Positions 3,068 to 28,323 of a stretch of 34,214 bases of DNA are shown here, one piece after another; within the stretch, counting starts at the first letter, position 1, and each line of letters starts with the position of its first letter. The stretch is taken from the NCBI GenBank assembly GCA_025355875.1, contig JANXYV010000209.1, positions 1-34,214 of the forward strand, written 5' to 3'. This DNA is from Prolixibacteraceae bacterium. Lineage in GTDB: Bacteria > Bacteroidota > Bacteroidia > Bacteroidales > Prolixibacteraceae. The notes under the pieces are model-generated. The model did not search any database, was not told the origin of the DNA, and worked only from the letters and a program-made list of their open reading frames with translations. The position numbers and the translations under genes were made by a program.

Positions 3068-6000
3068 ATGACTCCTTTTCGAAAAAAAACATACAAACAT
3101 CTGGCAATTATTGTCTTAGCAATAATATTGGCTACTTTAACAGTAGTTTGTGTGCTGTATTTTGAGGCTCAAATTTACCTGAATAAGAACCTTTCGGAGT
3201 TGGTTTCAAAAAAGTCGAAAGGAAAATATGAATTATCATTCGAAAACCTGAAAATCAATTTCAACGATTGGGGATTCGAAATCGATCAGGTTTCCTTTCA
3301 TCCTTCCGATTCCATTTTAAAAATCCTGCCCCGTTTGAACCCCGATAAGCGATTTTATTCATTTTCATCGCCGAATATCAGGTTCAGTGGAATCAGGTTC
3401 TTTAAGCTCTTGTTTTACAAAAATCTTGAAATCGGCGAAATATTAATCAGCCAGCCTGAATTGAACATTCATGGACAAAATTCGGATCAGGACAAAAAGG
3501 AAAATGACAACATAAGCAAACTTATTCTACAGCTTAAACCACTGGTAACCAAAACATTCAAATCAATTAAAATTGACAAGATTGAATTGGCAAATGCCAG
3601 TTTTGATTTTTACAGCTTGTTGGGCGAGACCCGGAAACTTGCCAATGCCGAGAATATTACGATTGGCATTCTGGATTTTTATACAGATTCGCTCCTTCTG
3701 CCCGACCCAAACCGGATGTTCGATGCCAAAGACATTTATTTCCGAATGCAAAACTATCAGAATAAGCTGGGGGACAGCATTCATAGCCTTTATGCCGAAT
3801 ACGTGACTTTCTCACTGAAAAACTCACAAATTGAATCCAAAAACCTTGAATTGAGACCTAATAATGATTCCATTTCAATGAAAGACCGGTATCAAATCAT
3901 TGTTCCCGAACTGAAAATTTCCTGCCGAAACATCCGGGATCTGTATCTCAATAATACAATACCCATAGATTCGCTGATCCTGAGAAGGGCTGTTATCAGA
4001 TATTGGCCGGCATCAAAAAGCCCGAAATCGTCTACAGATTCAAAACCGGGATTTAATTTGTACGAGTTAATGAAAAACGAAATTTCGAGTCTTCATATTC
4101 AGGACTTCAGGCTTCGGGATGCAAAGCTGATGCTCTATAAAAACCAAAAAGACACGAGTTGCCAGCAGGTACTGAAAAATATAAACCTGAACCTGAAGGA
4201 TTTTCAACTGGATTCAATATCAAACCAGGATACCAGTCGTATTTTTTATTCAAAAAACATCGATTTGTCGGCAAAGTCCTATGAATTGATTCTGGGTGAT
4301 AATATTCACCGGATTATGGTCAAATCGCTTGACCTTTTCACTCAACGAAAGTCAATCCTTTTCCGGAATATTCAAATAAGTCCGAGCTCAACCTCGAATA
4401 AAGAGTTCAGGCAAAGGAATACCATTGAGGCCATTTGTGACAGCGTCCGGCTCGACCAGTTTGATTTTAAACGTGCCTATCATCAAAAACGGTTTGCTTT
4501 TCAAAAGGTGAACCTTTTCAATCCGGAAGTCAGACTCACCCAGAATGAAATAGCTGAAGAAAAAGTAACGCCTGAAAATCTAAGCTTTGCGTACCGTTTG
4601 ATTTCAAGATATGCACTTGGTATTTATTCTGATCAGGTGACGGTTCAAAAAGGTAAAATACAATTGATAAATAAAACCGGATTGATGCAAACCGGGCATA
4701 TTGAGTCGATGGTAAAACTTCAACTAACCGGATTTGCATTGGACGAAATAAGTGCCCGCCGAAGCGATCGCCTGTTTTTTGCCAATCAGATTGAGTTGAA
4801 TTTCAGCAAGTATCAGATGCAGCTGGTCGATCAATTGCACAAACTTTCCATCGAGTCGTTTAACTTGTCGACCCGGAAAAAACTGGTAACTCTGCAAAAC
4901 CTTCACTTATTCCCGGTTTCAACCGAAAATATAGAGGCAATCCTGAAGAAATATAATCGTTCACAACTATACGAATTTACAATTCCTGAATTGAGTTTGA
5001 CAAACGCTGATTTTCATGAGGCGTTCTTCAACAAAAAGTTATCGGTCGACACTTTAAATATTAAAGCACCTCAAATTTACTACGAAAATTTTGCTTTGTT
5101 AAAAGCGGAAAAACCCAAGGCTGATTTTGAAGATTTATTCCTGTTGTTGTCTAATTATCTGTCAGACATACGTATAGAGAAAGTTGAAATTCCGGATGGA
5201 ACCATTCGCCTGGTTAACCACAGCCGAAAAGATAAAACCATTTCGCTCGACAACCATTTCTCATTAGGTTTGGAAAACATGCTGATCAATCAGGAACAAT
5301 TTGGTAAAAAGAAGCTGCTCTTTTCCGAATTTGTCAACTTGTCGGTTCGAGACCATGTGATCCAGCTCTCGGATAATGTTCATGTTTTAAAAGCCAGCGA
5401 AATCGGATTTTCGACCAAAACCAGGGAAGTATTTGCCACCAATGCAAGGCTTTATCCTGAGACCAATAGCCCAAACCTCTCGTCAATCAAGTGGAATATT
5501 CAGGTTTCAATTCCTGAAATAAGGATTAAAGGAATAAACATTGAAGAATTGTATTTCGATCATAAAGTTGACGTTGACAACATGCTCATAAATGCGCCTC
5601 AAATTAAACTCTACCAGAAACATAAAAATGTCAATACCACCGATTTGAAAGATATGAATTTCCCATTACCGAAAGAAATTGAATCCATTGCCGTTCGACA
5701 GTTCAAATTGAACGACGGCTCCTTGAAAGTTTTTTCGGAATTGGGGATTCAACCCTATTTGTTGATGCAATCAGACCTGAATTTGTCGGGCAAAAACATA
5801 TTTATACAGAATATTCTTGAGGGTCAAAAGCCTGATTTTACGGATGGGGATTATCATTTTCAAATGATTCAGTTTAAGTTTATGCCCAAAGATAAGAATC
5901 AGCAGTTTGGCATTGATGAGCTTAATTTTTCAACCGCCGACAAACAGATTCAGGCCAAACAACTTACTGTACGACCTAAGTCGAAAAGCAATACACAGGA

Positions 6001-14301: not shown

Positions 14302-14367
14302 TTACTCCGGATTCGCTTTGTAATACCTCCGAAACAACACTTTCTTCAAATCGCGAAAGATAGTAAC
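14302..14367 (-). pseudogene. Remnant of the small conserved gene D (third copy)
   Basis: On the minus strand, 14361 down to 14317 translates to IFRDLKKVLFRRYYK, the conserved C-terminus of the D protein (intact at 27955-28323), followed by a few diverged residues and a stop at 14302-14304. The N-terminal two thirds are not recognisable. The rest of the 337-bp gap between the CPBP gene and the leucine-rich lipoprotein gene (14368-14603) is AT-rich and holds only a -7 box at 14562. The remnant indicates that the accessory block starting here once had a D gene at this edge as well. Confidence 0.75.
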
Positions 14368-18083: not shown

Positions 18084-19202
18084 ATGAAGAAACTTCTACT
18101 TTTTGCTTCAGCCTTTTTATTGGGAACTCTTGTTTCACAGGCCCAAACCTGGAAAAAAATAAACACAGGTACGACCGTGGATCTCAGGTGTTCATGTTTT
18201 ATCGATTCAATACATGGCTGGGTTGCCGGAGGAACTGGCGGCAAGACAAATAACAACATTTTGAAAACGACCGATGGCGGATTGTCGTTTATGACTTACA
18301 CAACGGGATATTACAGTGACATTTCTGGCTTCTCGGCTGTCGATATGAATAATGCATGGGTAGCCGACGGCAGCATCATGATCAGACATACAACCAACGG
18401 AGGAACAACATGGACAAATCAGACACCCGGGCCGTCTCCAACTTATCCCTATAATTTATTGCATGACGTTTTTTTTAAGGATGCCAATCATGGATGGACC
18501 GTCGGTGATAATGGCACAATTTACAGCACGTCAGATGGCGGCGCCTCATGGATCAAGGCACCAAGTGTGACGGCAATAAATTTAAAAACGGTCTTTTTTG
18601 CAACCACCATGGATGGGTGGGCCGGTGGCGATTTTGCATCGGTGCTGAAAACGACCGATGGCGGTGCAAGCTGGACTGTAGTCGCCACTCCCATTGTAAA
18701 AGGCGATACCAACTATGGAATCAATGATCTTTACTTTCTGGATGCAGGAAATGGCTGGGCAGGGGTAGCCGGTGCAGTGCTAAGGACTGGCGATGGAGGA
18801 AACACGTGGATCACTGAATATACCAGCTACGGAAGCGATGGTATTTTCTTTACCAATGATGCAGGCTGGGCAGTCGGCATTTTTGGAACAATATATCGCT
18901 CCGGTGATGGTGGCGTGACCTGGGCAACACAGTCTCAGGTAGACAATATATTTTTATATAGCGTTTCGTTTCCGGATGCCGATCACGGATGGATATCCGG
19001 GGCTGGAGGCGCTTTGTATAAATATTCAAAGCCAAAGGTTACGTCCATTACAAATTCAGTTACCGGACCGATTTTTTCCCTGGATCAGAATTATCCCAAT
19101 CCGTTCAATCAATTAACAACCATTCGTTACGAACTCCCCCACTCTTCGTTTGTTCACTTACGATTTACAACTCATTGGGGCAACAAGTATCGCAACTTGT
19201 GA
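18084..19202 (+). CDS. Exported Asp-box/Ycf48-like beta-propeller protein, T9SS tail frameshifted
   Basis: The 372-residue frame starts with a signal peptide (MKKLLLFASAFLLGTLVSQAQ) and contains six repeats with the motif (S/T)-x-(D/N)-G-G-x-x-(W/F), such as TTDGGLSF, TTNGGTTW, TSDGGASW, TTDGGASW, TGDGGNTW and SGDGGVTW. These are typical of sialidase-like/Ycf48 propellers. It then enters a T9SS sorting domain at DQNYPNPFNQLTTIRYELP but leaves frame after SSFVHL and stops at 19202. The remaining sorting domain is intact in another frame (next entry). Without it the protein would be exported but not sorted to the surface by T9SS. A one-base deletion in the genome and a sequencing error are both possible. 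Confidence 0.8.
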   Translation: MKKLLLFASAFLLGTLVSQAQTWKKINTGTTVDLRCSCFIDSIHGWVAGGTGGKTNNNILKTTDGGLSFMTYTTGYYSDISGFSAVDMNNAWVADGSIMIRHTTNGGTTWTNQTPGPSPTYPYNLLHDVFFKDANHGWTVGDNGTIYSTSDGGASWIKAPSVTAINLKTVFFATTMDGWAGGDFASVLKTTDGGASWTVVATPIVKGDTNYGINDLYFLDAGNGWAGVAGAVLRTGDGGNTWITEYTSYGSDGIFFTNDAGWAVGIFGTIYRSGDGGVTWATQSQVDNIFLYSVSFPDADHGWISGAGGALYKYSKPKVTSITNSVTGPIFSLDQNYPNPFNQLTTIRYELPHSSFVHLRFTTHWGNKYRNL

Positions 19203-19330
19203 ACGAACACCAACAGCAAGGCAGTCACGAGGTGGTTTTTCAAAGCGACCGACTGGAATTAGGAACGTATTTTTACCGCTTGCAGGCAGGTGATTATATA
19301 TCTACGAAGAAAATGACACTTCTTCCATGA
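19163..19330 (+). pseudogene. Out-of-frame T9SS type A sorting domain of the Asp-box protein
   Basis: Read one base out of phase with the main frame, this stretch encodes IYNSLGQQVSQLVNEHQQ and continues to FYRLQAGDY and TKKMTLLP, a near-complete end of a T9SS type A domain. It closely resembles the in-frame tail of the protein at 24831-25460 (FYRLQAGDYIETKKMILLK). Restoring one base (for example an A making TTA-ACG at 19158-19163) would give an uninterrupted 18084-19330 gene. Confidence 0.85.
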
Positions 19331-19404: not shown

Positions 19405-21414
19405 ATGAAAAACTCAAAACTCCTTACATTAATTGCTTTTGCCCTTCTGGTATCCACTTGCCAGAAGGACAAGAGTCCAACCCCAACCAATACAAATTCT
19501 GTATCAACGCTGGGAATGACCAAAGCACTCACTGCTGCCGAAGCTAAGTTCATCGAATTTGGCAAGCAATCCGGAACCACTCCCCAGGGAGCTCTCGGAC
19601 TTACAGCTGAGTGGCTGAAAACACAACCGAATTTCAGTAGTGTCAATGTGGAAGGCAACACCATTATTAATTTTAAGATGAAATCGGGAATACCTGGAAT
19701 ATTTTTTCTGGATATCATGGATCAGAATGGTATCAGCATTTCCCGAGGGGGCGATTCAGGCAGGCCACAGCTTAAGTTAATGTCAACAAAACAATCCAAA
19801 AACAAGATCGAAAACAAGAAAGTTTTGTTGTGTTATCCAAACGCGGACGAATTTTATACTGACGCGGAATTGAATACAATCCTGGATCGTTTCAAGAGTT
19901 CTGATCTGAATTTGGATGTAAGTGAAAAACTTCTTGATAAGGTCAGTCCCGATTTGGTTAGCACTTTTGGAGACTACGGATTGGTTATCCTCAATACTCA
20001 TGGCACTCAAGACAGCTTTCTATCGGGAAGCAAGATAAATTTTTCTTCCTCCGACTCAACTGATGAATTACTCAAGAATACGATAATTAAAGAATTTTCT
20101 CAGAAAACCTACGACGATCTCACGAAAGGCTTGTTGCGGATTGGGTTTCATTTCAAGACAACTTCAGGCCCAGATTGGGCAAAAAAATATGCGATGTCGA
20201 ACAATACTTTTACCATCTGGATCGGCAGCGAATACATCAACAGTTTGCCCGACATGCCCAATACCATCATTATGGGAAACTTTTGTTACAGCGGTCAAAC
20301 GATTTCCTCCAAGGAATATCCAAATCCAATTGGTACTGCTTTCAAAAATTTAAACCTGATTAGCTATTATTGCTTTGGTGACGATAATGGCGGCTCCGGT
20401 GATGTGGACAATAACTTTGCAAAAGCCATGGCGGAATCGCTGACCAATTCATTTGTGTTTGACAACGACAGTACCGGAAATGCATACCTTAGTAACACGG
20501 GTGCTGAGTTTAAAGATCCTTATCATTCCGGATACCTGAAACAGTATGGCGCCAAAGACTATAGTTACAATTACAAAACTGCCGATCCAACCATGGTGGC
20601 TGTCAAAGGTGGTACATTCCAGATGGGGAATGCATTCGATGTACTCGATGAGGAAGCAAGGCCTGTTCATCCGGTGACTGTTAGTTCATTCCTTATCGAC
20701 AAGTTTGAGATTACCTATAAGAAATGGACGGAAGTTAGAAATTGGGCATTGGAGCATGGGTATGCAAGTTCAGATATTGCGGAAGGCCAGGATGGAGTCA
20801 GTGCTTCCGGCCCAACCACTAGTGGGGCAAACAATCCGGTTACCAGGGTGAACTGGTACGATATCTTGAAATGGTGCAATGCGCGATCAGAGATGGATGG
20901 ACTGAAGCCCGTTTACTATACGAGCAGCAAGCAAGACATCGTATACCGCGCTGGTCAAATCCAAAACTACCCTCAAAATGCGGTAAATTGGGCCGCGAAT
21001 GGCTATCGGTTGCCTACGGAAGCAGAATGGGAATTTGCGTCGCGGGGCGGGACTAAGTCAGGCAATTATAAATACAGCGGAAGTAATACAATAGGTGATG
21101 TGACCTGGTTTGCCGGAAATTCAGGCAGTTCTCCACTCATTGACTTAACAACGCATCCTGTGGGCCAGAAAGCTCCAAATGAACTAGGCATATACGACAT
21201 GAGCGGGAATGCTTTAGAGTGGTGCTGGGATTTACGGGCAGCTTATCCCAGCACGGCACAAACCGATCCGAAGGGTAATGTGGGTGGAGGCACCATTGTA
21301 TTGCGGGGTGGCGGATATAACATGGACCCAGGTCTGTGCGAGTCAGCAAATCGCCATATGCAGTACCCACCTACTACGAAAACTTTCGCCGGGTTCCGAT
21401 GTGCTGCCAACTGA
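19405..21414 (+). CDS. Caspase-like (clan CD) lipoprotein with C-terminal FGE-sulfatase-type domain (P1)
   Basis: A 669-residue lipoprotein: signal with Cys19 (LLVSTCQ), a Thr/Pro linker, a unique N-terminal domain (about 40-130), a caspase/gingipain-like core (about 135-390) and an FGE-sulfatase (SUMF1-type) domain (about 396-669). The core shows clan CD hallmarks: a hydrophobic strand ending in His-Gly (YGLVILNTHG, His199) and a second strand ending in Cys (NTIIMGNFCYSG, Cys294). The FGE part has MVAVKGGTFQMGN, YRLPTEAEWEFASRGG, DMSGNALEWCWD and GFRCA. It reads GLCESANRHM where true formylglycine-generating enzymes have two cysteines five residues apart, so it is more likely a binding module. 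It is probably a cell-surface protease or receptor. It lies upstream of a kinase/regulator pair on the same strand; P2 at 25529 is its paralogue. Confidence 0.7.
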   Translation: MKNSKLLTLIAFALLVSTCQKDKSPTPTNTNSVSTLGMTKALTAAEAKFIEFGKQSGTTPQGALGLTAEWLKTQPNFSSVNVEGNTIINFKMKSGIPGIFFLDIMDQNGISISRGGDSGRPQLKLMSTKQSKNKIENKKVLLCYPNADEFYTDAELNTILDRFKSSDLNLDVSEKLLDKVSPDLVSTFGDYGLVILNTHGTQDSFLSGSKINFSSSDSTDELLKNTIIKEFSQKTYDDLTKGLLRIGFHFKTTSGPDWAKKYAMSNNTFTIWIGSEYINSLPDMPNTIIMGNFCYSGQTISSKEYPNPIGTAFKNLNLISYYCFGDDNGGSGDVDNNFAKAMAESLTNSFVFDNDSTGNAYLSNTGAEFKDPYHSGYLKQYGAKDYSYNYKTADPTMVAVKGGTFQMGNAFDVLDEEARPVHPVTVSSFLIDKFEITYKKWTEVRNWALEHGYASSDIAEGQDGVSASGPTTSGANNPVTRVNWYDILKWCNARSEMDGLKPVYYTSSKQDIVYRAGQIQNYPQNAVNWAANGYRLPTEAEWEFASRGGTKSGNYKYSGSNTIGDVTWFAGNSGSSPLIDLTTHPVGQKAPNELGIYDMSGNALEWCWDLRAAYPSTAQTDPKGNVGGGTIVLRGGGYNMDPGLCESANRHMQYPPTTKTFAGFRCAAN

Positions 21415-21484
21415 AAATTTTGTACGTTTTCACTTCTTTGGAGTAAAATTAATTTCTATATCTTGAACTACAAACTTCTGAACT

Positions 21485-23452
21485 ATGGTTCGTTTTGCTG
21501 TTGCACTATTTTTCATCATTGGTTTTTTACAGGTGGCAATCTGCCAAACCGGGCAAATTGACAGCCTGAAGCAGCTGGTCCATCATGCAAAAAATGATCA
21601 GGTAAAACTGAATGCGATACTGGCTTTGTGCGACGAATTCCAGAGCCTGAATCGCGATACATTTGATTTATACACCATTCAGGCAAAAAAACTGGCTTAT
21701 AAATCAGGCAATGAACGGAACATTAACCTTGCAGCCATTGTGGTAGCCAACAACTATTACCGCTGGGGATGGATGGACAGCGCCATGGCTATAATTACGC
21801 CAGTATTGTTGAATTCACCTGTTGAAAATATTGCTACCCATGATATTTATTTTAAAGCAGGACGGCAGAAAGCAATCTATTTCGGCAGCAAATCCAAGTA
21901 TCCTGAAGCGCTGGAAATCCTTTACCAACTGGTGAGTTATGGAGAAAAATATCATGATACTCTGGCAATCAGTTCAAATATGAACACGATCAGCTCCATT
22001 GAACTTCAACGAAATCAGCCCAAGGAAGGCCTGAAATGGTGCAGAAAAGCGTTAACTTTTACGGATAAAAACAAGCATTTTGATGCAGTTAGGGCAGCAA
22101 TTTACGTGAACATATCAGAGGCTTTTAAATTACTCAACAAACAGGATTCTGCTATCAGTTACAGCGAAAAAGGAGTCGTACTCTTTAGAAAAGGGAATAA
22201 CCTGATGGGCTTGGCACAGGCTCTGCAACGGCAATCAGATATTTTCCTCATGGCTAAAAATGTGGATAAAGCTGCCAATGCTATGATCGAAATGATTGAT
22301 GTCCGCAAATTGTTGAATGACGGTGAAATGTGGACTGACGATAACTTATCCCTAATAAACCTTTACATTGAAGCGAATGAGGTTGAAAAAGCGATAGACT
22401 TTTGTAAGAAACAATTGGTTAGTGGAAATCTCTATCAAAGAACCGATACAGCGAGGGTTTTTGTGAATGATATAGCGCAGAAACTACTTTATTATGAAGC
22501 TTTGGCACGCTGTTACAAAATAAAGGGTGATCAGATTGCCTATCAGAATATGCTTGAACAAATTATTCAGGCAAAAGATTCGTTTTACACGGTCCGGTCG
22601 GAAAAAGCTATTGCCGAAGTGCAGACAAAATACGATGTGGAGCAAAAAGAAAATACGATCATGCACCAAAAGGTAACCATTATTCAAAAGAATAATCAAC
22701 TGTTGCTTGCCCTGTTGATTGCTTTGGTGGCCGCTGCTTTTGGTTGGTTCTTATTCAGGAATTACCGCAGAAAACAAAAGCTAAAAGTGGCCGATGCAAT
22801 AGGGAAAGAAAAAAGTTTATCAGCACAGGCTGTTGCCGATGCCGAAGAAAATGAACGCCAGCGGATTGCAGCCGATCTGCACGATAACCTCGGTGCTTAT
22901 GCAGCATCCATTGCTTCGAATCTTGATATATTTAACGCCGGAGATTTTGATGACCAGCACAAAACAGCTTTGCAGGAATTAAACAAGAATTCGCAGTCAA
23001 TCGTTTCTCAACTCGGTGATACGATTTGGGCATTAAACAGGAATAACCTGACTTTAACTGCCATTAGCGACCGGATAAAACTGTTTCTCAACCAACTTGG
23101 GAAAAGTCACAATACAATTGAAATGATCGTGATCGAAAATATTAATCAGGATCTTGAGTTGAAATCGACCCATGCTTTTCATCTTTACCGTATTATTCAG
23201 GAAGCTGTTACTAATGCAGTAAAACATAGCAGAACCGACCGGTTGGAAGTAATATTTGACGAGAATCGGGGCTGGAAAGTTGAAGTTAAAGATTTTGGCA
23301 AAGGAACTTCAGGAAATAGCGAGGGCATAAAGTCTGAAGGCAACGGACTTCGCAACATGCGGGCACGGGCCGGTATGGCAGGATGGAATATCAACTGGAG
23401 TGGAAATAACCCAAGCGGAACTGTTGTAACCATTTGTCCGGAAATAAATTAA
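21485..23452 (+). CDS. TPR sensor histidine kinase (NarL/HisKA_3 type)
   Basis: A 655-residue membrane kinase. A signal peptide or first helix (VALFFIIGFLQVAICQ) precedes a periplasmic helical TPR-like sensor (about 30-370), a coiled coil, one membrane helix (about 406-425), then a HisKA_3 dimerisation domain with the phospho-acceptor His466 in RIAADLHDNLG. A HATPase domain follows (NAVKHS, DFGKG, GNGLRNMRARAGM). It should autophosphorylate in response to an unknown signal and pass phosphate to the regulator 11 bp downstream. Such periplasmic TPR kinases are common in Bacteroidota. It starts 70 bp after the caspase-FGE gene, so the three genes may form one transcript. No second copy of the kinase remains in the duplicated block. 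Confidence 0.9.
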   Translation: MVRFAVALFFIIGFLQVAICQTGQIDSLKQLVHHAKNDQVKLNAILALCDEFQSLNRDTFDLYTIQAKKLAYKSGNERNINLAAIVVANNYYRWGWMDSAMAIITPVLLNSPVENIATHDIYFKAGRQKAIYFGSKSKYPEALEILYQLVSYGEKYHDTLAISSNMNTISSIELQRNQPKEGLKWCRKALTFTDKNKHFDAVRAAIYVNISEAFKLLNKQDSAISYSEKGVVLFRKGNNLMGLAQALQRQSDIFLMAKNVDKAANAMIEMIDVRKLLNDGEMWTDDNLSLINLYIEANEVEKAIDFCKKQLVSGNLYQRTDTARVFVNDIAQKLLYYEALARCYKIKGDQIAYQNMLEQIIQAKDSFYTVRSEKAIAEVQTKYDVEQKENTIMHQKVTIIQKNNQLLLALLIALVAAAFGWFLFRNYRRKQKLKVADAIGKEKSLSAQAVADAEENERQRIAADLHDNLGAYAASIASNLDIFNAGDFDDQHKTALQELNKNSQSIVSQLGDTIWALNRNNLTLTAISDRIKLFLNQLGKSHNTIEMIVIENINQDLELKSTHAFHLYRIIQEAVTNAVKHSRTDRLEVIFDENRGWKVEVKDFGKGTSGNSEGIKSEGNGLRNMRARAGMAGWNINWSGNNPSGTVVTICPEIN

Positions 23453-23463
23453 TCTAAAATTGA

Positions 23464-24141
23464 ATGCTTATGGAATTCAGGATAGCACTTGCAGAAGACA
23501 ATGCAGTAAACCGGAACACGTTTATGCAAAAGTTGAGTTTATCGGGCAAAATGCGGCTAATTTTCAGTGCCAATAACGGAAACGAATGCCTCGAAAAACT
23601 GAAGGGTTTGTTTCACACCGAAATGCCGCAGGTAATTTTTATGGATTTGAAAATGCCTGAAATGGACGGCATTGAAACCATCCGGATCGCCAAATCGCTC
23701 TATCCGCAAATACATTTCATTGTATTGACCATTTTTGACGATGACGCAAAAATCTTTGATGCCATTAAAGCAGGTGCTTCCGGCTATTTATTGAAACACG
23801 AACCTGCATCTGTTCTGGAAGAATCGGTCATAGATATTTTGGAAACCGGCGGAGCACCCATGAGCCCGGCCATTGCCCGAAAAGCTTTGCAATTATTAAG
23901 CCGGTCGACAAATGCTGAAAATGGCACCGCAGCAACAAACGAGATTCCGGAAAGCATCACCCAGCGCGAAAAGGAAATTTTGCAACAAATGGTAAACGGC
24001 TGGGATGCCAAGCGAATCGCGGCAGAGCTAAATATCAGCACATTAACCGTCCGAAAACACATTGCCAACATTTACGAAAAACTGCATGTAAGCTCGCGGG
24101 CACAGATTATCATGCTGGCAACCAAACATAAATGGGTGTAA
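23464..24141 (+). CDS. NarL/FixJ-family response regulator
   Basis: A 225-residue DNA-binding regulator, partner of the kinase 11 bp upstream. The receiver domain has the acidic pair in ALAEDNAVN, the phospho-acceptor Asp61 in VIFMDLKMPEMDG, the Thr of FIVLTIFDDD and the Lys of GYLLKHEP. The C-terminal LuxR-type HTH (about 160-222) reads ITQREKEILQQMVNG and ISTLTVRKHIANIYEKL. Translation may start at 23464 or at the next ATG (23470). The last 88 bp of the gene and the following intergenic bases are duplicated at 27854-27941. The target genes are not shown by the sequence; the adjacent surface-protein genes are natural candidates. Confidence 0.93.
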   Translation: MLMEFRIALAEDNAVNRNTFMQKLSLSGKMRLIFSANNGNECLEKLKGLFHTEMPQVIFMDLKMPEMDGIETIRIAKSLYPQIHFIVLTIFDDDAKIFDAIKAGASGYLLKHEPASVLEESVIDILETGGAPMSPAIARKALQLLSRSTNAENGTAATNEIPESITQREKEILQQMVNGWDAKRIAAELNISTLTVRKHIANIYEKLHVSSRAQIIMLATKHKWV

Positions 24142-24523
24142 ATCCTGAAATATTCTATTACGATTTGTAATACCTACGGAACAACACCTTTTTCAAATCC
24201 CGAAAAATTACCTGATGGGCTAAAACTTCAAGATCGTTGTAATGTGGCAATTCGCGATGGGCATTCGCAATTTCGTGTTCAGTAATGTCAACCTGGAATA
24301 AAACTGACATTAAACGGCTGTAATCACGATCGAAGTATACCGAGATCTGGTTAATCAGTTGCTCATGAAGTTCCTGATAGGCATTTTCTACATTTCCGGA
24401 GAAAGTAATTTCGATACCAAACATGCCAAAATCTTTCATGATTTGTTCTGCTGTTTCGCGCACAATATCAGCCTTACTCAGATAGAATTTGATGATGTTA
24501 TTGTGACGGTTGACTATACTCTA
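24054..24523. repeat. Segmental duplication, upstream copy (response-regulator 3' end + gene D)
   Basis: This block aligns with 27854-28323 at a constant offset of 3800 bp, apparently without insertions or deletions at the points checked: regulator stop codon, spacer, and first codon of D. The conserved 16-bp spacer between regulator stop and D stop shows that it is a DNA-level duplication and not two independent homologues. Similarity ends abruptly at the first codon of D. Confidence 0.88.
24158..24523 (-). pseudogene. Decayed copy of small conserved gene D (start codon lost)
   Basis: The minus-strand frame matches the intact D protein (27955-28323) along its full length. The codon aligned with the ATG of D is TAG (24521-24523), so the native start is gone. 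An in-frame GTG at 24463 could start a 101-residue shortened product lacking the first 20 residues. The remaining frame has no stops and most changes are conservative (for example Glu/Asp and Phe/Leu), so decay is recent or the short form is still made. The function of the family is not known to me. It is convergent with the response regulator gene. Confidence 0.8.
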
Positions 24524-24830
24524 ATCCCGACAAATTTGCGAATCATGAAGAAAATAGTTTAAAAGATTTACAACATACTTTGCTTGGCATTACTGAATTT
24601 TGACTAACTTTAACTTGACTGAAGAAAGAAAACCTGATGCAAAAAAACGCAATAAAAAATGCTAGCGTTGGAAGTAAGTTTGGGATTATTCGCCCGCCAA
24701 TAGTTTCCTGTATGTTGACAGGAAACAGCCACTAAAGCCGCTACTCTTTATAACCATGGCCAATTAGCTTAAGCCATGAGGAATTTTAACTGTGAACTGG
24801 CAAACATCATTACAAATCAAATCCGTCATT
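24524..24830. other. Intergenic region with a perfect inverted repeat
   Basis: This 307-bp gap holds no convincing gene. It contains a perfect inverted repeat at 24703-24726: GTTTCCTGT, a 6-base loop, ACAGGAAAC. No T-tract follows on either strand, so it is more like an operator or structured leader element than a terminator. The downstream gene is the small T9SS repeat protein. Confidence 0.55.
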
Positions 24831-25460
24831 ATGATTCGCAAATTATTCTATCTTTTAATCGTTATTGCTGCTAACGCGACTGCACAAACACCTGACTCGA
24901 TGAATGTAAAATTAAAGTCTGGTGCGAATATTCCGTATGCCCTTACCTCAGTGAATGGCCTCAGCTTTTCAGGTATTCAAGGGAAGGACACAATGAATGT
25001 AAATTTGAAATCAGGATCGTCAATCCTGTATTCCATATCCTTGCTTGATGGGATAAATTTTTCAAATGACCAGTCGGCCGATTCAATTTTCATCGAAATG
25101 AAAGGAGGAACCGTCCAAAAGTATGCCATTTCTTCCATCTCCGGATTGTCATTCATCGGTTGGGATAAAAGTACCTCAATTGAAACAGCAATGGTGAAAC
25201 GGTATTTCCTCGGGCAAAACTATCCAAACCCGTTTAATTTATCCACTACCATTCAGTATTATTTGCCGAAGCAGCAAAATGTAACGCTCACGGTCTCTGC
25301 AACGACAGGCAGGAAGATCGTATCCCTGGTTCAGGAAGAACAAAGTTCAGGAATGCACCAGTTTACCTGGGATGCATCAACGGTTCCCGGCGGTATCTTC
25401 TTTTACAGGCTACAGGCAGGTGATTATATTGAAACAAAAAAGATGATTTTGTTGAAATAG
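24831..25460 (+). CDS. Small T9SS-secreted protein with three 31-residue repeats
   Basis: A 209-residue exported protein: signal peptide (MIRKLFYLLIVIAANATAQ), three tandem repeats beginning at residues 22, 53 and 84, and a T9SS type A sorting domain from about 130 (GQNYPNPFNLSTTIQYYLP, ending TKKMILLK). Each repeat follows D-(S/T)-(M/I)-x-(V/I)-x-(L/M)-K-x-G, then Y-x-(I/L)-x4-G-(L/I)-x-F. Single copies of a similar motif (a charged strand followed by I-x-x-I-x-F-S) occur at the mature N-terminus of many Bacteroidota secreted proteins, including P2 just downstream (RKDGKKDSIAVNTISQIRFS). Here the motif makes up the whole mature body. The ATG at 24831 begins the signal peptide; an earlier in-frame start at 24792 adds 13 residues. 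Probably surface-exposed, role unknown. Confidence 0.78.
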   Translation: MIRKLFYLLIVIAANATAQTPDSMNVKLKSGANIPYALTSVNGLSFSGIQGKDTMNVNLKSGSSILYSISLLDGINFSNDQSADSIFIEMKGGTVQKYAISSISGLSFIGWDKSTSIETAMVKRYFLGQNYPNPFNLSTTIQYYLPKQQNVTLTVSATTGRKIVSLVQEEQSSGMHQFTWDASTVPGGIFFYRLQAGDYIETKKMILLK

Positions 25461-25528
25461 AATCTTATGAATCGCTAACAAAAAAGGCTTTTATTCCAAT
25501 ACTTACCATACATTAAACATAAACTATC

Positions 25529-27448
25529 ATGAAACATCTTATTCTTTGTACGTTCCTGCTCACTTCATATTTTGTATCGTTTGCTCAGACCAAACTGCTT
25601 ATCGATCGCAAGGACGGAAAAAAAGATTCGATCGCGGTGAATACCATTTCGCAGATCAGGTTTTCTTCTCCGGGCATTAATGAGCCTTCGCTACTCGAAG
25701 TAGTTACAGTTCTGGATTCAGCAAAGGCTAAATTTATTGAATATGCAAATTTAACAAAGGGAGATTTAATGTATTCATTAGACTTAACTGAAAACTGGTT
25801 AATGAAACAACCTAATGTGAAGTCAACTTTTTCAATGGGTGATGGATACATATATATTACATTAAAATCGGGGCTTAAAACCACCTTTTATTTTAATGAG
25901 GTTGATGATAACGGAATAAGCGTTTACAGAGGTGGAAAAGCTGGCAGTCCGATTCATGCAGGCAGTGAATTTATTAATAATGCAGAGGAGATTCTTTCCA
26001 AAAATGTTATTGAAAATAAGAAAGTATTACTTTTCGAAACTACCACCGATTTGGATTTAGAACCCCAAATCCCGGTTATTACTGATATTCTCAATAAAGC
26101 CGGCTTGGATCTGAAAGTTACCGTTTTAAAATATAAACAATGTACGGCAGAAGCTGTAGAAACTTTCAAGGACTATGGTTTGGTTATTATCGACGGGCAT
26201 GGTCAGATAAGTACATTCGAACTTGGAACCTATGTGGATTTTACAAATAAGCCCAAAACTGAAGAATCAGTTAAAAATGAAATCAAAACTCAGTTAGGTT
26301 CAGGTAGCGCAGATAAAGTAAGTTCAGGCGCTATTGAATTGGCAGCAAGCATTAAAGCGAATCCTCAGCAATCGGATTGGGTTAAACGCATTATAAAAGA
26401 AGACAGATATACCACATGGTTATCAGGGAAATACATAGCCACATTACCTCCAATGCCAAAGACCATCATTTTTGGGAATATGTGCAATAGTGGATGGATA
26501 ATCAAGTACTTAACTACTCCAGAGAGAAAAATTACCCTTACGGATAAAAGCGTGGTTACCTATCCGGCAAAAACTGATACTTTTGAATACGCAGTAGGCA
26601 GAACTTTTATTGAGCGTGGTTTAATCAGTTATTATGGATTCACCCGGAATGAATACTTAAACAGGCGCAATGTAGTAATACCGGCAGGTACCTCCAGGGG
26701 GGTTCCGGATGATTTTTCCAAGAAAGTGGAAAAGATATTTGTACAAAGATTAGCAAAAGACAATGACAGCACAGGTATTGCGAATTTAAAACCGGATAAT
26801 AAAACGGAGTATTTCGATCCGGATCGCAGAAATATTGACTTGAGGCTTTATGGTGACTTATATTTCAGACACTACGGTGAAAAAGATTACAGTTACCAAA
26901 AGTGCGGAGATACGCTCACTGATGCCCGCGACGGGCAGAAGTATGCAACCGTCTGCATTGGCAAACAAAACTGGATGGCACAGAACCTGAATTATGATGC
27001 TACCGGGAGTGCCTGCTATAATAACATCCCAGGTAACTGCACCATCTATGGAAGATTATATGATTGGAATACTGTTATGCAAGGGGCAAGTGCAAGTGAT
27101 TCCGATCCAAGCGGTGTGCAGGGAGTTTGTCCGAAAGGCTGGCACGTTCCAAGCAAAGCAGAATGGGATAAATTAATCATTTCTCTGGGAGGAAAGGATG
27201 CTGCAGGCTTTTCACTAATGTCAACAACATGGGGAAGTGGCACAAATAGTAGTGGTTTTAATGTCCTTCCTGCGGGTTGCTTCATTTTACCACCGAACAA
27301 CTTTGGACTACTAGGTTCCACCACCTTATTTGCAACCTCATCCAAGGATGAAAATGGGAATATGCTTGAAGTTGGACTTAATGGCACTGCAAAGGTAACA
27401 ATTGGCATTGGACAAGGTTCTTCGTGTCGCTGTGTAAAAAATCCATAA
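25529..27448 (+). CDS. Caspase-like (clan CD) secreted protein with C-terminal Fib_succ_major domain (P2)
   Basis: A 639-residue paralogue of P1 (19405-21414). It has an ordinary signal peptide (MKHLILCTFLLTSYFVSFAQ) in place of a lipobox, one I-x-x-I-x-F-S motif, then the same N-terminal and protease-like modules. Shared landmarks are AKFIE, NGIS-x2-RGG, IENKKVLL, DYGLVI-x3-HG (His224), LP-x-MP-x-TII-x-GN-x-C-x-SG (Cys319), DNDSTG and YG-x-KDYSY. After about residue 459 it switches to a Fibrobacter succinogenes major paralogous domain (ARDGQKYATVCIGKQNWMAQ, RLYDWNTVM, VCPKGWHVPSKAEWDKL, CRCVKNP). It lacks a T9SS tail. It is probably exported, with the C-terminal domain acting in binding. Protease activity is suggested only by the His and Cys motifs. 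Confidence 0.7.
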   Translation: MKHLILCTFLLTSYFVSFAQTKLLIDRKDGKKDSIAVNTISQIRFSSPGINEPSLLEVVTVLDSAKAKFIEYANLTKGDLMYSLDLTENWLMKQPNVKSTFSMGDGYIYITLKSGLKTTFYFNEVDDNGISVYRGGKAGSPIHAGSEFINNAEEILSKNVIENKKVLLFETTTDLDLEPQIPVITDILNKAGLDLKVTVLKYKQCTAEAVETFKDYGLVIIDGHGQISTFELGTYVDFTNKPKTEESVKNEIKTQLGSGSADKVSSGAIELAASIKANPQQSDWVKRIIKEDRYTTWLSGKYIATLPPMPKTIIFGNMCNSGWIIKYLTTPERKITLTDKSVVTYPAKTDTFEYAVGRTFIERGLISYYGFTRNEYLNRRNVVIPAGTSRGVPDDFSKKVEKIFVQRLAKDNDSTGIANLKPDNKTEYFDPDRRNIDLRLYGDLYFRHYGEKDYSYQKCGDTLTDARDGQKYATVCIGKQNWMAQNLNYDATGSACYNNIPGNCTIYGRLYDWNTVMQGASASDSDPSGVQGVCPKGWHVPSKAEWDKLIISLGGKDAAGFSLMSTTWGSGTNSSGFNVLPAGCFILPPNNFGLLGSTTLFATSSKDENGNMLEVGLNGTAKVTIGIGQGSSCRCVKNP

Positions 27449-27484: not shown

Positions 27485-27688
27485 ATGCGCAACTTTGGCA
27501 AGAAACCTGGAACCATTCCGCAGGGAGCTCCCGGACTTACTGCTGAGTGGCTGAAAACACAACCGAATGCCGGTACTGTCAATGTAGAAGGCAATACTGT
27601 TATCAATATTAAATTGAAATCAGTTACACCTGGTATATTTTTTCTGGATATCAAGGACAATGATGGACTATGTATTTCCTGTACGTGA
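27485..27688 (+). pseudogene. Fragment of a third caspase-like gene (P3), N-terminal domain only
   Basis: The frame NFGKKPGTIPQGAPGLTAEW continues to VNVEGNTVINIKLKS and GIFFLDIKDNDG, closely matching residues about 51-113 of P1; the first 60 aligned bases differ at only 7 positions. No lipoprotein signal precedes it and the protease core and C-terminal domain are absent. Similarity ends at about 27684. A separate short frame from 27670 to 27792 (40 codons, including ILKEGSEIIVLDSEKLDSL) follows and may be part of another broken gene. This is a remnant of a P1-type gene, not of P2. Confidence 0.85.
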
Positions 27689-27854
27689 GATTCAGACGTA
27701 ACTTTTGGATTCTGAAAGAAGGCAGTGAAATCATTGTTTTGGATTCTGAAAAACTCGACAGCCTAATAAACGCAATACCATACAATGCATGATAAGTAGC
27801 TGAAATGCCCAACTTATTGGAATTAAACTAAACATAAGCTTGCTCATTGTGCAA

Positions 27855-27941
27855 AAACACATTGCCAACATTTACGAAAAGCTACATGTAAACTCTCGTG
27901 CACAAATTATCATGCTGGCAACCAAACATAAATGGCTGTAA
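27855..27941 (+). pseudogene. 3' stub of a second response regulator
   Basis: The frame KHIANIYEKLHVNSRAQIIM continues to TKHKWL and a stop. It matches the last 28 residues of the regulator at 23464-24141. Only seven base differences lie in this stretch and five are synonymous, so the second regulator was probably under selection for some time before it lost its 5' part. The receiver domain, most of the HTH and any matching kinase are gone. Confidence 0.88.
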
Positions 27942-27954
27942 ATCCTGAAATATT

Positions 27955-28323
27955 CTATTGCGATTTATAATACCTCCGGAACAACACCTTTTTCAAATCC
28001 CTAAAAATGACCTGATGTGCCAGTACTTCCAGATCATTGTAATGAGGCAATTCCTGATGTGCTTTGGCTATTTCGCGTTCGGTAATGTCAACCTGGTACA
28101 AAACAGCCATCAGGCGGCTATAATCTCTGTCAAGATATATCGCAATCTGGATGATCAACTGATCGTGCAACTCATGATAAGCATTTTCAACATCTCCCGA
28201 AAAGGTAATTTCGATACCAAACATACCAAAATCCTTCATAATCTGGTCAGCGGTTTCGCGGACAATGTCTTCCTTATTCAGAAAGAATTCAATGTTGTTG
28301 TTTTGCAGGTTAACCAGATCCAT
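27955..28323 (-). CDS. Small conserved protein D, unknown function (intact copy)
   Basis: A 122-residue, probably cytoplasmic, helical protein without signal peptide or membrane segment; I do not recognise a named domain. Strongly conserved stretches shared with the other copies are VRETA-x-QIMKDFGMFGIEI, ITFSG-x-VENAY, DRDYSRLM, ELPHYNDLEVLAHQ and IFRDLKKVLFRRYYKS. The ATG at 28323 lies 53 bp downstream of the fumarase stop on the same strand, beyond a strong hairpin, so it may be partly cotranscribed with fumarase. Its conservation in a full, a start-less and a remnant copy makes it a marker of the duplicated block. Confidence 0.75.
   Translation of the reverse strand: MDLVNLQNNNIEFFLNKEDIVRETADQIMKDFGMFGIEITFSGDVENAYHELHDQLIIQIAIYLDRDYSRLMAVLYQVDITEREIAKAHQELPHYNDLEVLAHQVIFRDLKKVLFRRYYKSQ

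Follow-up and report, generated by a model that had tools for sequence, protein, structure and literature searches.

The 34,214-nucleotide (nt) stretch analysed here (hereafter referred to as the window, in which coordinates are given unless another locus is named) is contig JANXYV010000209.1 of the Prolixibacteraceae bacterium assembly GCA_025355875.1. It encodes two exported proteins, P1 and P2, that share an N-terminal head and end in different domains (Table 1). The head comprises an N-terminal module (N-module) of two helices and three strands, followed by a core that carries a strand–His and a strand–Cys motif. P1 and P2 have about 390 head residues in common, with 31% identity over 426 aligned columns (E 1e-51), and His199 and Cys294 of P1 are aligned with His224 and Cys319 of P2. 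The C terminus of P1 is a formylglycine-generating enzyme (FGE)-sulfatase domain (PF03781; E 3.4e-49, 168.2 bits versus a Pfam cut-off of 23.3), and that of P2 is a FISUMP (Fib_succ_major) domain (PF09603, E 7.2e-23, 82.2 bits versus a cut-off of 33.9; TIGR02145, E 6.4e-41, 141 versus 41.65). As judged by eye, the hydrophobic leader of P1 ends in a single Cys preceded by Thr, forming a loose lipobox, and the leader of P2 is plain with an A–Q junction, in agreement with the Bacteroidetes rule of PMC5837995 (articles are cited by PMC identifier throughout). An earlier note on this DNA had described the shared N-terminal module and core with these His and Cys residues, the FGE-sulfatase and Fib_succ_major C termini, and a lipoprotein beside a protein with a plain signal peptide, and all of these assignments hold.

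Table 1. Features of the window in and around the P1 and P2 genes
Feature	Position	Strand	Basis
P1, exported, N-module + clan-CD-like core + FGE-sulfatase domain, 669 amino acids (aa)	19405..21414	+	Open reading frame (ORF) list, alignment, Pfam
P1 N-module (aa 35-117; two helices, three strands)	19507..19755	+	Model and profile
P1 clan-CD-like core (aa 134-388)	19804..20568	+	Alignment, model, profile comparison
P1 His199 codon, candidate catalytic His	19999..20001	+	Alignment
P1 Cys294 codon, candidate catalytic Cys	20284..20286	+	Alignment
P1 FGE-sulfatase domain (aa 395-667); TvpA is the nearest solved relative; lacks the first FGE cysteine	20587..21405	+	Pfam, comparison with solved structures
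P2, exported, N-module + clan-CD-like core + FISUMP domain, 639 aa	25529..27448	+	ORF list, alignment, Pfam
P2 N-module (aa 52-135)	25682..25933	+	Model and profile
P2 clan-CD-like core (aa 160-456)	26006..26896	+	Alignment, model, profile comparison
P2 His224 codon, candidate catalytic His	26198..26200	+	Alignment
P2 Cys319 codon, candidate catalytic Cys	26483..26485	+	Alignment
P2 FISUMP (Fib_succ_major) domain (aa 462-638)	26912..27442	+	NCBIfam
TPR sensor histidine kinase; neighbouring gene, not a conserved partner of the family	21485..23452	+	Pfam, tblastn
NarL-type response regulator; neighbouring gene, not a conserved partner of the family	23464..24141	+	Pfam, NCBIfam, tblastn
Small ORF copy, unlabelled family, 82% to the intact copy over aa 2-121; called ORF 24158-24463	24158..24520	-	Sequence comparison
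Small exported protein with type IX secretion system (T9SS) type A sorting domain, upstream of P2	24792..25460	+	Pfam, NCBIfam
Decayed fragment of a second P1 (P1 aa 52-118, part of the N-module only; 70% aa identity)	27494..27694	+	Sequence comparison
Second response regulator copy, decayed to a C-terminal fragment (63%)	27768..27938	+	Sequence comparison
Intact small ORF copy bounding the duplicated unit; no Pfam match	27955..28323	-	ORF list, Pfam
Third copy of the small ORF, a fragment of its end (88% over 17 aa)	14314..14364	-	Sequence comparison

Pfam and NCBIfam give no label for the head of either protein, returning only chance-level matches, so that in both libraries such proteins are named, if at all, after their C-terminal domains; PADLOC matched neither P1 nor P2 at E up to 1. 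By eye, residues 21-50 at the mature start of P2 contain one 'V.LK.G...I..I.FS'-like unit, as if in place of a lipobox, and the small gene upstream of P2 encodes three short copies of this motif ahead of its T9SS tail.

Searches with the head as a profile revealed a family that belongs to Bacteroidota-related bacteria and is rare and scattered. A two-row head profile matched 1 of 61 close-relative genomes, namely the window's own, and 3 of 395 genomes of the phylum, including that one. In a scan of named genome contigs, 49 stretches fitted the pattern and 16 encoded a relative, and the scan yielded 14 loci from 13 genomes, two loci (L019 and L030) belonging to one metagenome-assembled genome (MAG); among viral sequences, none of 162 candidate pattern stretches was confirmed. 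Profiles of 23 and 28 rows matched 10 and 16 of the 395 phylum genomes, respectively. One of the 16 (G109) encodes a TPR-CHAT protein, leaving the family in 15, and eight of the 16 match by construction, having supplied profile rows (the own genome, G224 and G441 initially; G123, G162, G167, G276 and G375 as additions). In the class of G224, 21 of 274 genomes match.

The head is kept and the C-terminal domain is exchanged, as the earlier note had proposed for an exported family. The 14 loci encode 22 heads detected by hidden Markov model, two of them partial, and every one is followed by a FISUMP domain, P1 being the sole FGE case among these loci and the two window genes. The main proteins of all 14 loci have a leader that ends in a single Cys (by eye, several with an internal Met as the start). 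More distant relatives are lipoproteins of about 700 aa that consist of an extra N-terminal domain, the N-module, the core and a choice-of-anchor-L C terminus, and this last domain (NF038133) scored above the cut-off in the three relatives of that type that were scanned. Another group, of about 500 aa, has an unlabelled C terminus. In other genomes, the head is thus joined to several different C-terminal domains; their absence was one of the outcomes by which the earlier note would have been refuted. We also observed two long exported lipoproteins (L155 and L151) from the window's class with the same N-module, a core nearer to CHAT than that of the window's proteins (score 55.0) and long unlabelled C termini.

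The AlphaFold model of the P2 head is mostly confident (ten-residue block means mostly 75-96), with a weak linker at residues 131-160 and dips at residues 171-180 and 431-440. The model of the P1 head has block means of mostly 69-96 and a weak linker at residues 111-130, and the FGE part of P1 lies outside it for want of aligned relatives. In the models, the core elements run in the order strand, helix, strand, helix, strand–His, small strands and helices, strand–Cys, helix, strand and helix. This order agrees with the description of clan CD peptidases, in which the His and then the Cys each lies just after a central strand (PMC4357240).

Profile comparison linked the core to CHAT. The core scored 36.1 against CHAT (P 2.6e-4), compared with 12.6 for the reversed core (E-values being those of single comparisons), and a widened core scored 43.2, compared with a maximum of 19.7 over 20 column shuffles and with 13.2 against receiver domains, a three-sequence control. 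C14 and CHAT, which belong to one clan, scored 31.8 against each other under the same comparison. The resemblance to CHAT sits around the His strand and, through the L151/L155 group, around the Cys strand. Against C14 (PF00656), which gives no Pfam match, the core scored 20.8 and the widened core 25.0 (shuffled maximum 13.8), and only the L151/L155 group reached 36.8. C25 (PF01364) had no Pfam or profile match to the core; the same method misses C25 against CHAT too, so that this comparison is too weak to exclude a relation. The family profiles were built from 30 listed loci each, of which 26 C25, 27 C14 and 27 CHAT sequences entered, the others having failed a length or frame check. By these comparisons, CHAT is the nearest of the three clan CD families, not the gingipains, which the earlier note had named together with caspases for a fold comparison. 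Furthermore, the 28-row profile, which takes in the CHAT-nearer row L040, retrieves the TPR-CHAT protein of G109 at E 5.6e-6, a protein that Pfam CHAT matches at 1.3e-65.

The candidate catalytic residues are conserved throughout the family. Of 51 aligned members, 49 have both the His and the Cys, and not all members are independent (L152 and L153, for example, are nearly alike). The two exceptions are L172, whose sequence begins at a contig end downstream of the His, and L155, in which the Cys stretch falls outside the alignment yet is visible in the sequence. In the 28-row alignment, where identity to P2 falls to 15%, the His, the Gly next to it and the Cys are three of the seven invariant columns.

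The N-module precedes the core in P1 and P2 and also in the FISUMP, choice-of-anchor-L and L151 groups and in a Chlorobi-like bacterial family (f43), with profile matches from about position 2-8. In f43, all nine genomes with an enzyme gene also encode, directly downstream on the same strand, a lipoprotein of about 106 aa that consists of the N-module alone; the intervening gaps are 85 and 91 nt where computed, and one of the nine is cut by a contig end. The flanking genes resemble lgt and an ATP-citrate-lyase gene, which presumably would fit Chlorobiaceae. The N-module of the window's family matched the standalone lipoproteins with P 8e-10 (reversed control 0.4), and those lipoproteins in turn matched the enzyme N termini with P 2.4e-8; seven of nine standalone and six of nine enzyme modules entered these comparisons, the others having failed a motif search. 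Streptopain is likewise encoded beside Spi, its propeptide-like inhibitor copy. A propeptide-like copy beside the enzyme suggests, from the layout, that the N-module is a prodomain or inhibitor. At the end of the N-module, a Gly is present in all 48 members with a residue there, accompanied by a basic residue in 36 of the 48 (33 Arg and 3 Lys), and three further rows are gapped. We do not claim an Arg–Gly autocleavage site at this position, because the basic residue is found in only those 36 and because the window's subfamily lacks the S1-type acidic residue. We also considered whether the P1 remnant at 27494 might be a working standalone N-module and dropped the idea, since the match of this remnant starts only at P1 residue 52 and the leader and first helix are missing.

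Tandem arrays of head genes allow the exchange of C-terminal domains to be followed. L020 has five heads, of which two share one fused ORF; L021 has three, and L025 and L027 have two each. The heads of L020d, which is truncated, and L020e are 35% alike and their FISUMP domains 80%, whereas L027a and L027b are 73% alike in the head and 51% in FISUMP. Over 253 pairs, head and FISUMP identities show a weak correlation (rho 0.24), and in 18 of 23 genes the head and the FISUMP domain have different nearest partners, FISUMP being short with many near ties. Among four clades tested, each suggested by the data of the other domain, the head data reject L020d+L020e (p 4e-8) and the FISUMP data reject L020b+L020d (p 4e-4) and L025a+L025b (p 0.009); the A6 set is without the truncated L020d head. 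These tree conflicts support recombination between head and C terminus in the arrays, and the FGE domain of P1 fits the same habit of exchange. As separate observations, L020 6717-9851 is a single 1045-aa ORF in which a truncated head and FISUMP are fused to a complete head and FISUMP, and L028 has a FISUMP-only ORF (4412-5041, minus strand; Pfam 5.7e-29) about 3 kb from its head gene, possibly a loose domain cassette.

The best-scoring solved relatives of the P1 C-terminal domain are Treponema denticola TvpA (2y3c; E 9.3e-27) and 5aoh (E about 1e-26). A formylglycine-generating enzyme needs both of its active-site cysteines. In alignments to solved FGEs, the first of these is replaced in P1 and the second is kept, as in TvpA; we therefore rejected FGE catalysis by P1, and its C terminus is probably a binding domain.

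Taken together, P1 and P2 are probably exported, mostly lipid-anchored cysteine peptidases of clan CD type (CHAT/caspase-like), aimed by exchangeable binding domains and with the N-module as prodomain or inhibitor; we favour this reading with some confidence. In such a protein, consisting of leader, N-module, core with a candidate His–Cys dyad and exchangeable C-terminal domain, the core would cleave proteins, and the C-terminal domain, whether lectin-like of the FISUMP or FGE type or choice-of-anchor L, would tether the enzyme to an extracellular ligand. The N-module would silence the core until it is released, and in f43 the separate N-module lipoprotein may inhibit or tune the enzyme in trans. 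Shuffling of C-terminal domains within tandem arrays would then give one cell several target specificities from one catalytic unit. Of this picture, the modular layout, the conserved His and Cys, the CHAT-like profile, the swapped C-terminal domains and the arrays are observed, whereas peptidase activity, ligand binding and inhibition by the N-module are inferred.

Several observations weigh against this reading. Neither the P1 nor the P2 model had a Foldseek match at E <= 0.001; among the 50 matches listed for each, caspases account for 14 for P1 (several being the same protein) and 2 for P2, and since flavodoxins and other alpha/beta folds also appear among the matches listed, the caspase matches are suggestive only. 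The clan-CD-like fold put forward in the earlier note thus stands as regards the strand–His/strand–Cys order of the predicted core and a CHAT similarity above controls, and lacks a structural match at that threshold. No CHAT, C14 or C25 Pfam match was found at E <= 10 when 23 heads were each scanned alone, and the f43 core, taken by itself, did not match CHAT (score 13.4). The residue two before the Cys, which is acidic in clostripain-type Arg/Lys enzymes (PMC4850288), is Asn in all 26 FISUMP-type and P1 rows and Glu in all nine f43 rows. At least eight other f43 genomes have no match to the 28-row profile, so that the enzyme–N-module cassette is not universal in f43, and the FISUMP data do not reject the fourth clade, P2+L023 (p 0.217). 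The lack of significant Foldseek and Pfam peptidase matches would suit a head that serves as a binding or signalling scaffold, a clan CD fold without peptidase function in which the His and Cys are kept for structure or for a metal. We nevertheless consider a scaffold unlikely, because the dyad and the Gly after the His persist at 15% identity, whereas in pseudo-orthocaspases Tyr and Ser replace the two residues (PMC6426788). A spacer or assembly role for the N-module, which might hold the core off the membrane or bind a partner, is a possibility that we would place short of an even chance: the layout reveals only that the module is separable, and the standalone copies, being lipoproteins, could be membrane scaffolds. 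However, the module stands ahead of the core in the four groups named above and is encoded alone beside the enzyme in the manner of a propeptide with its inhibitor copy, and gingipain R has an inhibitory N-terminal prodomain (PMC4357240).

Two further alternatives concern the C-terminal domains and the neighbouring regulators. FGE and Fib_succ_major domains have both been reported in variable proteins (PMC4159848), and the genome contains two reverse-transcriptase matches; P1 and P2 might therefore be targets of a diversity-generating retroelement, as are some other proteins with these domains. This is highly improbable here. Within the window, the last 450 nt of P1 and of P2 are repeated over 16 nt at most, and a genome-wide search for a template of the 3′ end of P1 returned only that end itself and a 35-nt match (the end of P2 was searched within the window). 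In the 14 loci, the longer 3′-end matches (L020, L021, L025 and L027) lie within or just beside neighbouring FISUMP genes, with one weak 45-nt match in L019, and both reverse-transcriptase matches are on other contigs (one on C137). On another contig of the window's genome (L033), we observed a reverse transcriptase gene (PF00078, 1.1e-18; PHROG 1423). The earlier note had also suggested that the sensor kinase and response regulator encoded between P1 and P2 may control them, and a dedicated system of this kind would fit the shared strand, the spacing (70 nt from P1 to the kinase and 11 nt from the kinase to the regulator) and the duplication of the regulator C terminus along with a P1 fragment. 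Nonetheless, tblastn matched the kinase at none of the 14 related loci, the flanks of several being short, and the regulator found only general receiver-domain matches, in L027 and L029. Two-component genes adjoin the head gene in 2 of the 14 loci, as a hybrid sensor divergent from it in L024 and a Crp-type regulator and PAS kinase convergent to it in L029; all three are of types other than those of the window, and the receiver-like proteins of L022 and L027 lie further away. By these searches, the two-component system is not a conserved partner of the family, and dedicated sensing or control of P1 and P2 by it is quite improbable.

The region also preserves traces of its history. A decayed second copy of the P1 unit, missed by the earlier note, follows P2: the P1 fragment, the regulator fragment and the second small ORF indicate that the P1–kinase–regulator unit was probably once duplicated and that the second copy was largely lost. 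The P2 head groups not with P1 but with a sequence from an Ignavibacteria MAG, to which it is 58% identical (support 100/99), and, given also that P2 lies between the two copies, it probably arrived separately. Judged by this grouping and arrangement, a simple local duplication does not account for P1 and P2, and the term pair, used for them previously, is misleading. The copies of the small ORF bracket the region and may mark duplication breakpoints. Upstream of P1, at 18084-19316, lies a Ycf48-like exported gene whose T9SS sorting tail is seemingly frame-shifted, the ORF stopping at 19202 and tail-like DNA, similar to 25401-25446, following at 19271-19316.

A comparison with known systems places the family near several of them. 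It resembles CHAT (PF12770) in core profile and His–Cys dyad, whereas it is exported and has a leader, an N-module and a C-terminal domain, the CHAT protein retrieved has TPR repeats, and the Pfam model misses the family. Streptopain and Spi share with it a propeptide-like protein encoded beside the enzyme, but streptopain is of a different enzyme clan and the N-module falls in no Pfam inhibitor family. Gingipains are T9SS cargo, whereas the present proteins are mostly lipoproteins, have other accessory domains and lack a C25 profile match; gingipains (Peptidase C25) and C11 of Bacteroidota are nonetheless clan CD peptidases, as is proposed here, and gingipain R offers the prodomain parallel cited above. 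TvpA is the nearest solved counterpart of the P1 C terminus, to which P1 adds a peptidase-like head, with no retroelement beside it. Fusions of a caspase-type domain to an FGE or C-type-lectin-like C terminus occur among metacaspases (33 of 671; PMC3501461) and as orthocaspase–lectin variable proteins of cyanobacteria (PMC7517822). In those proteins, the caspase-type domain is recognisable and the cyanobacterial variable proteins come with a retroelement; in the window's family, by contrast, C14 is unrecognised, the core is preceded by an N-module, FISUMP most often occupies the C terminus and the searches for a template repeat were negative. The combination of a caspase-type enzyme with a lectin-like domain and the inhibitory prodomain are thus already known. 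The exported CHAT-like branch with its N-module, the standalone copy of that module and the FISUMP exchange look new, and we recognised no description of this exported family in the open-access literature searched.

A bolder reading, which we offer only tentatively and hold to be doubtful, is that of a new surface-tethered clan CD family in which a silencing module acts in cis and, as a lipoprotein, in trans, and binding domains are shuffled in arrays, yielding switchable targeted proteases with self-protection. The proposed targeted proteases and silencing lipoprotein would follow a logic similar to that of polymorphic toxins and their immunity proteins. If the peptidase reading is true, an exported branch would be added to the CHAT/caspase clan, and the prodomain would be directly testable, since one bacterial family has a separate gene for it next to that of the enzyme. 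Moreover, the gene arrays offer a case, with no retroelement in sight, in which one can follow how recognition domains are exchanged while the catalytic head stays fixed.

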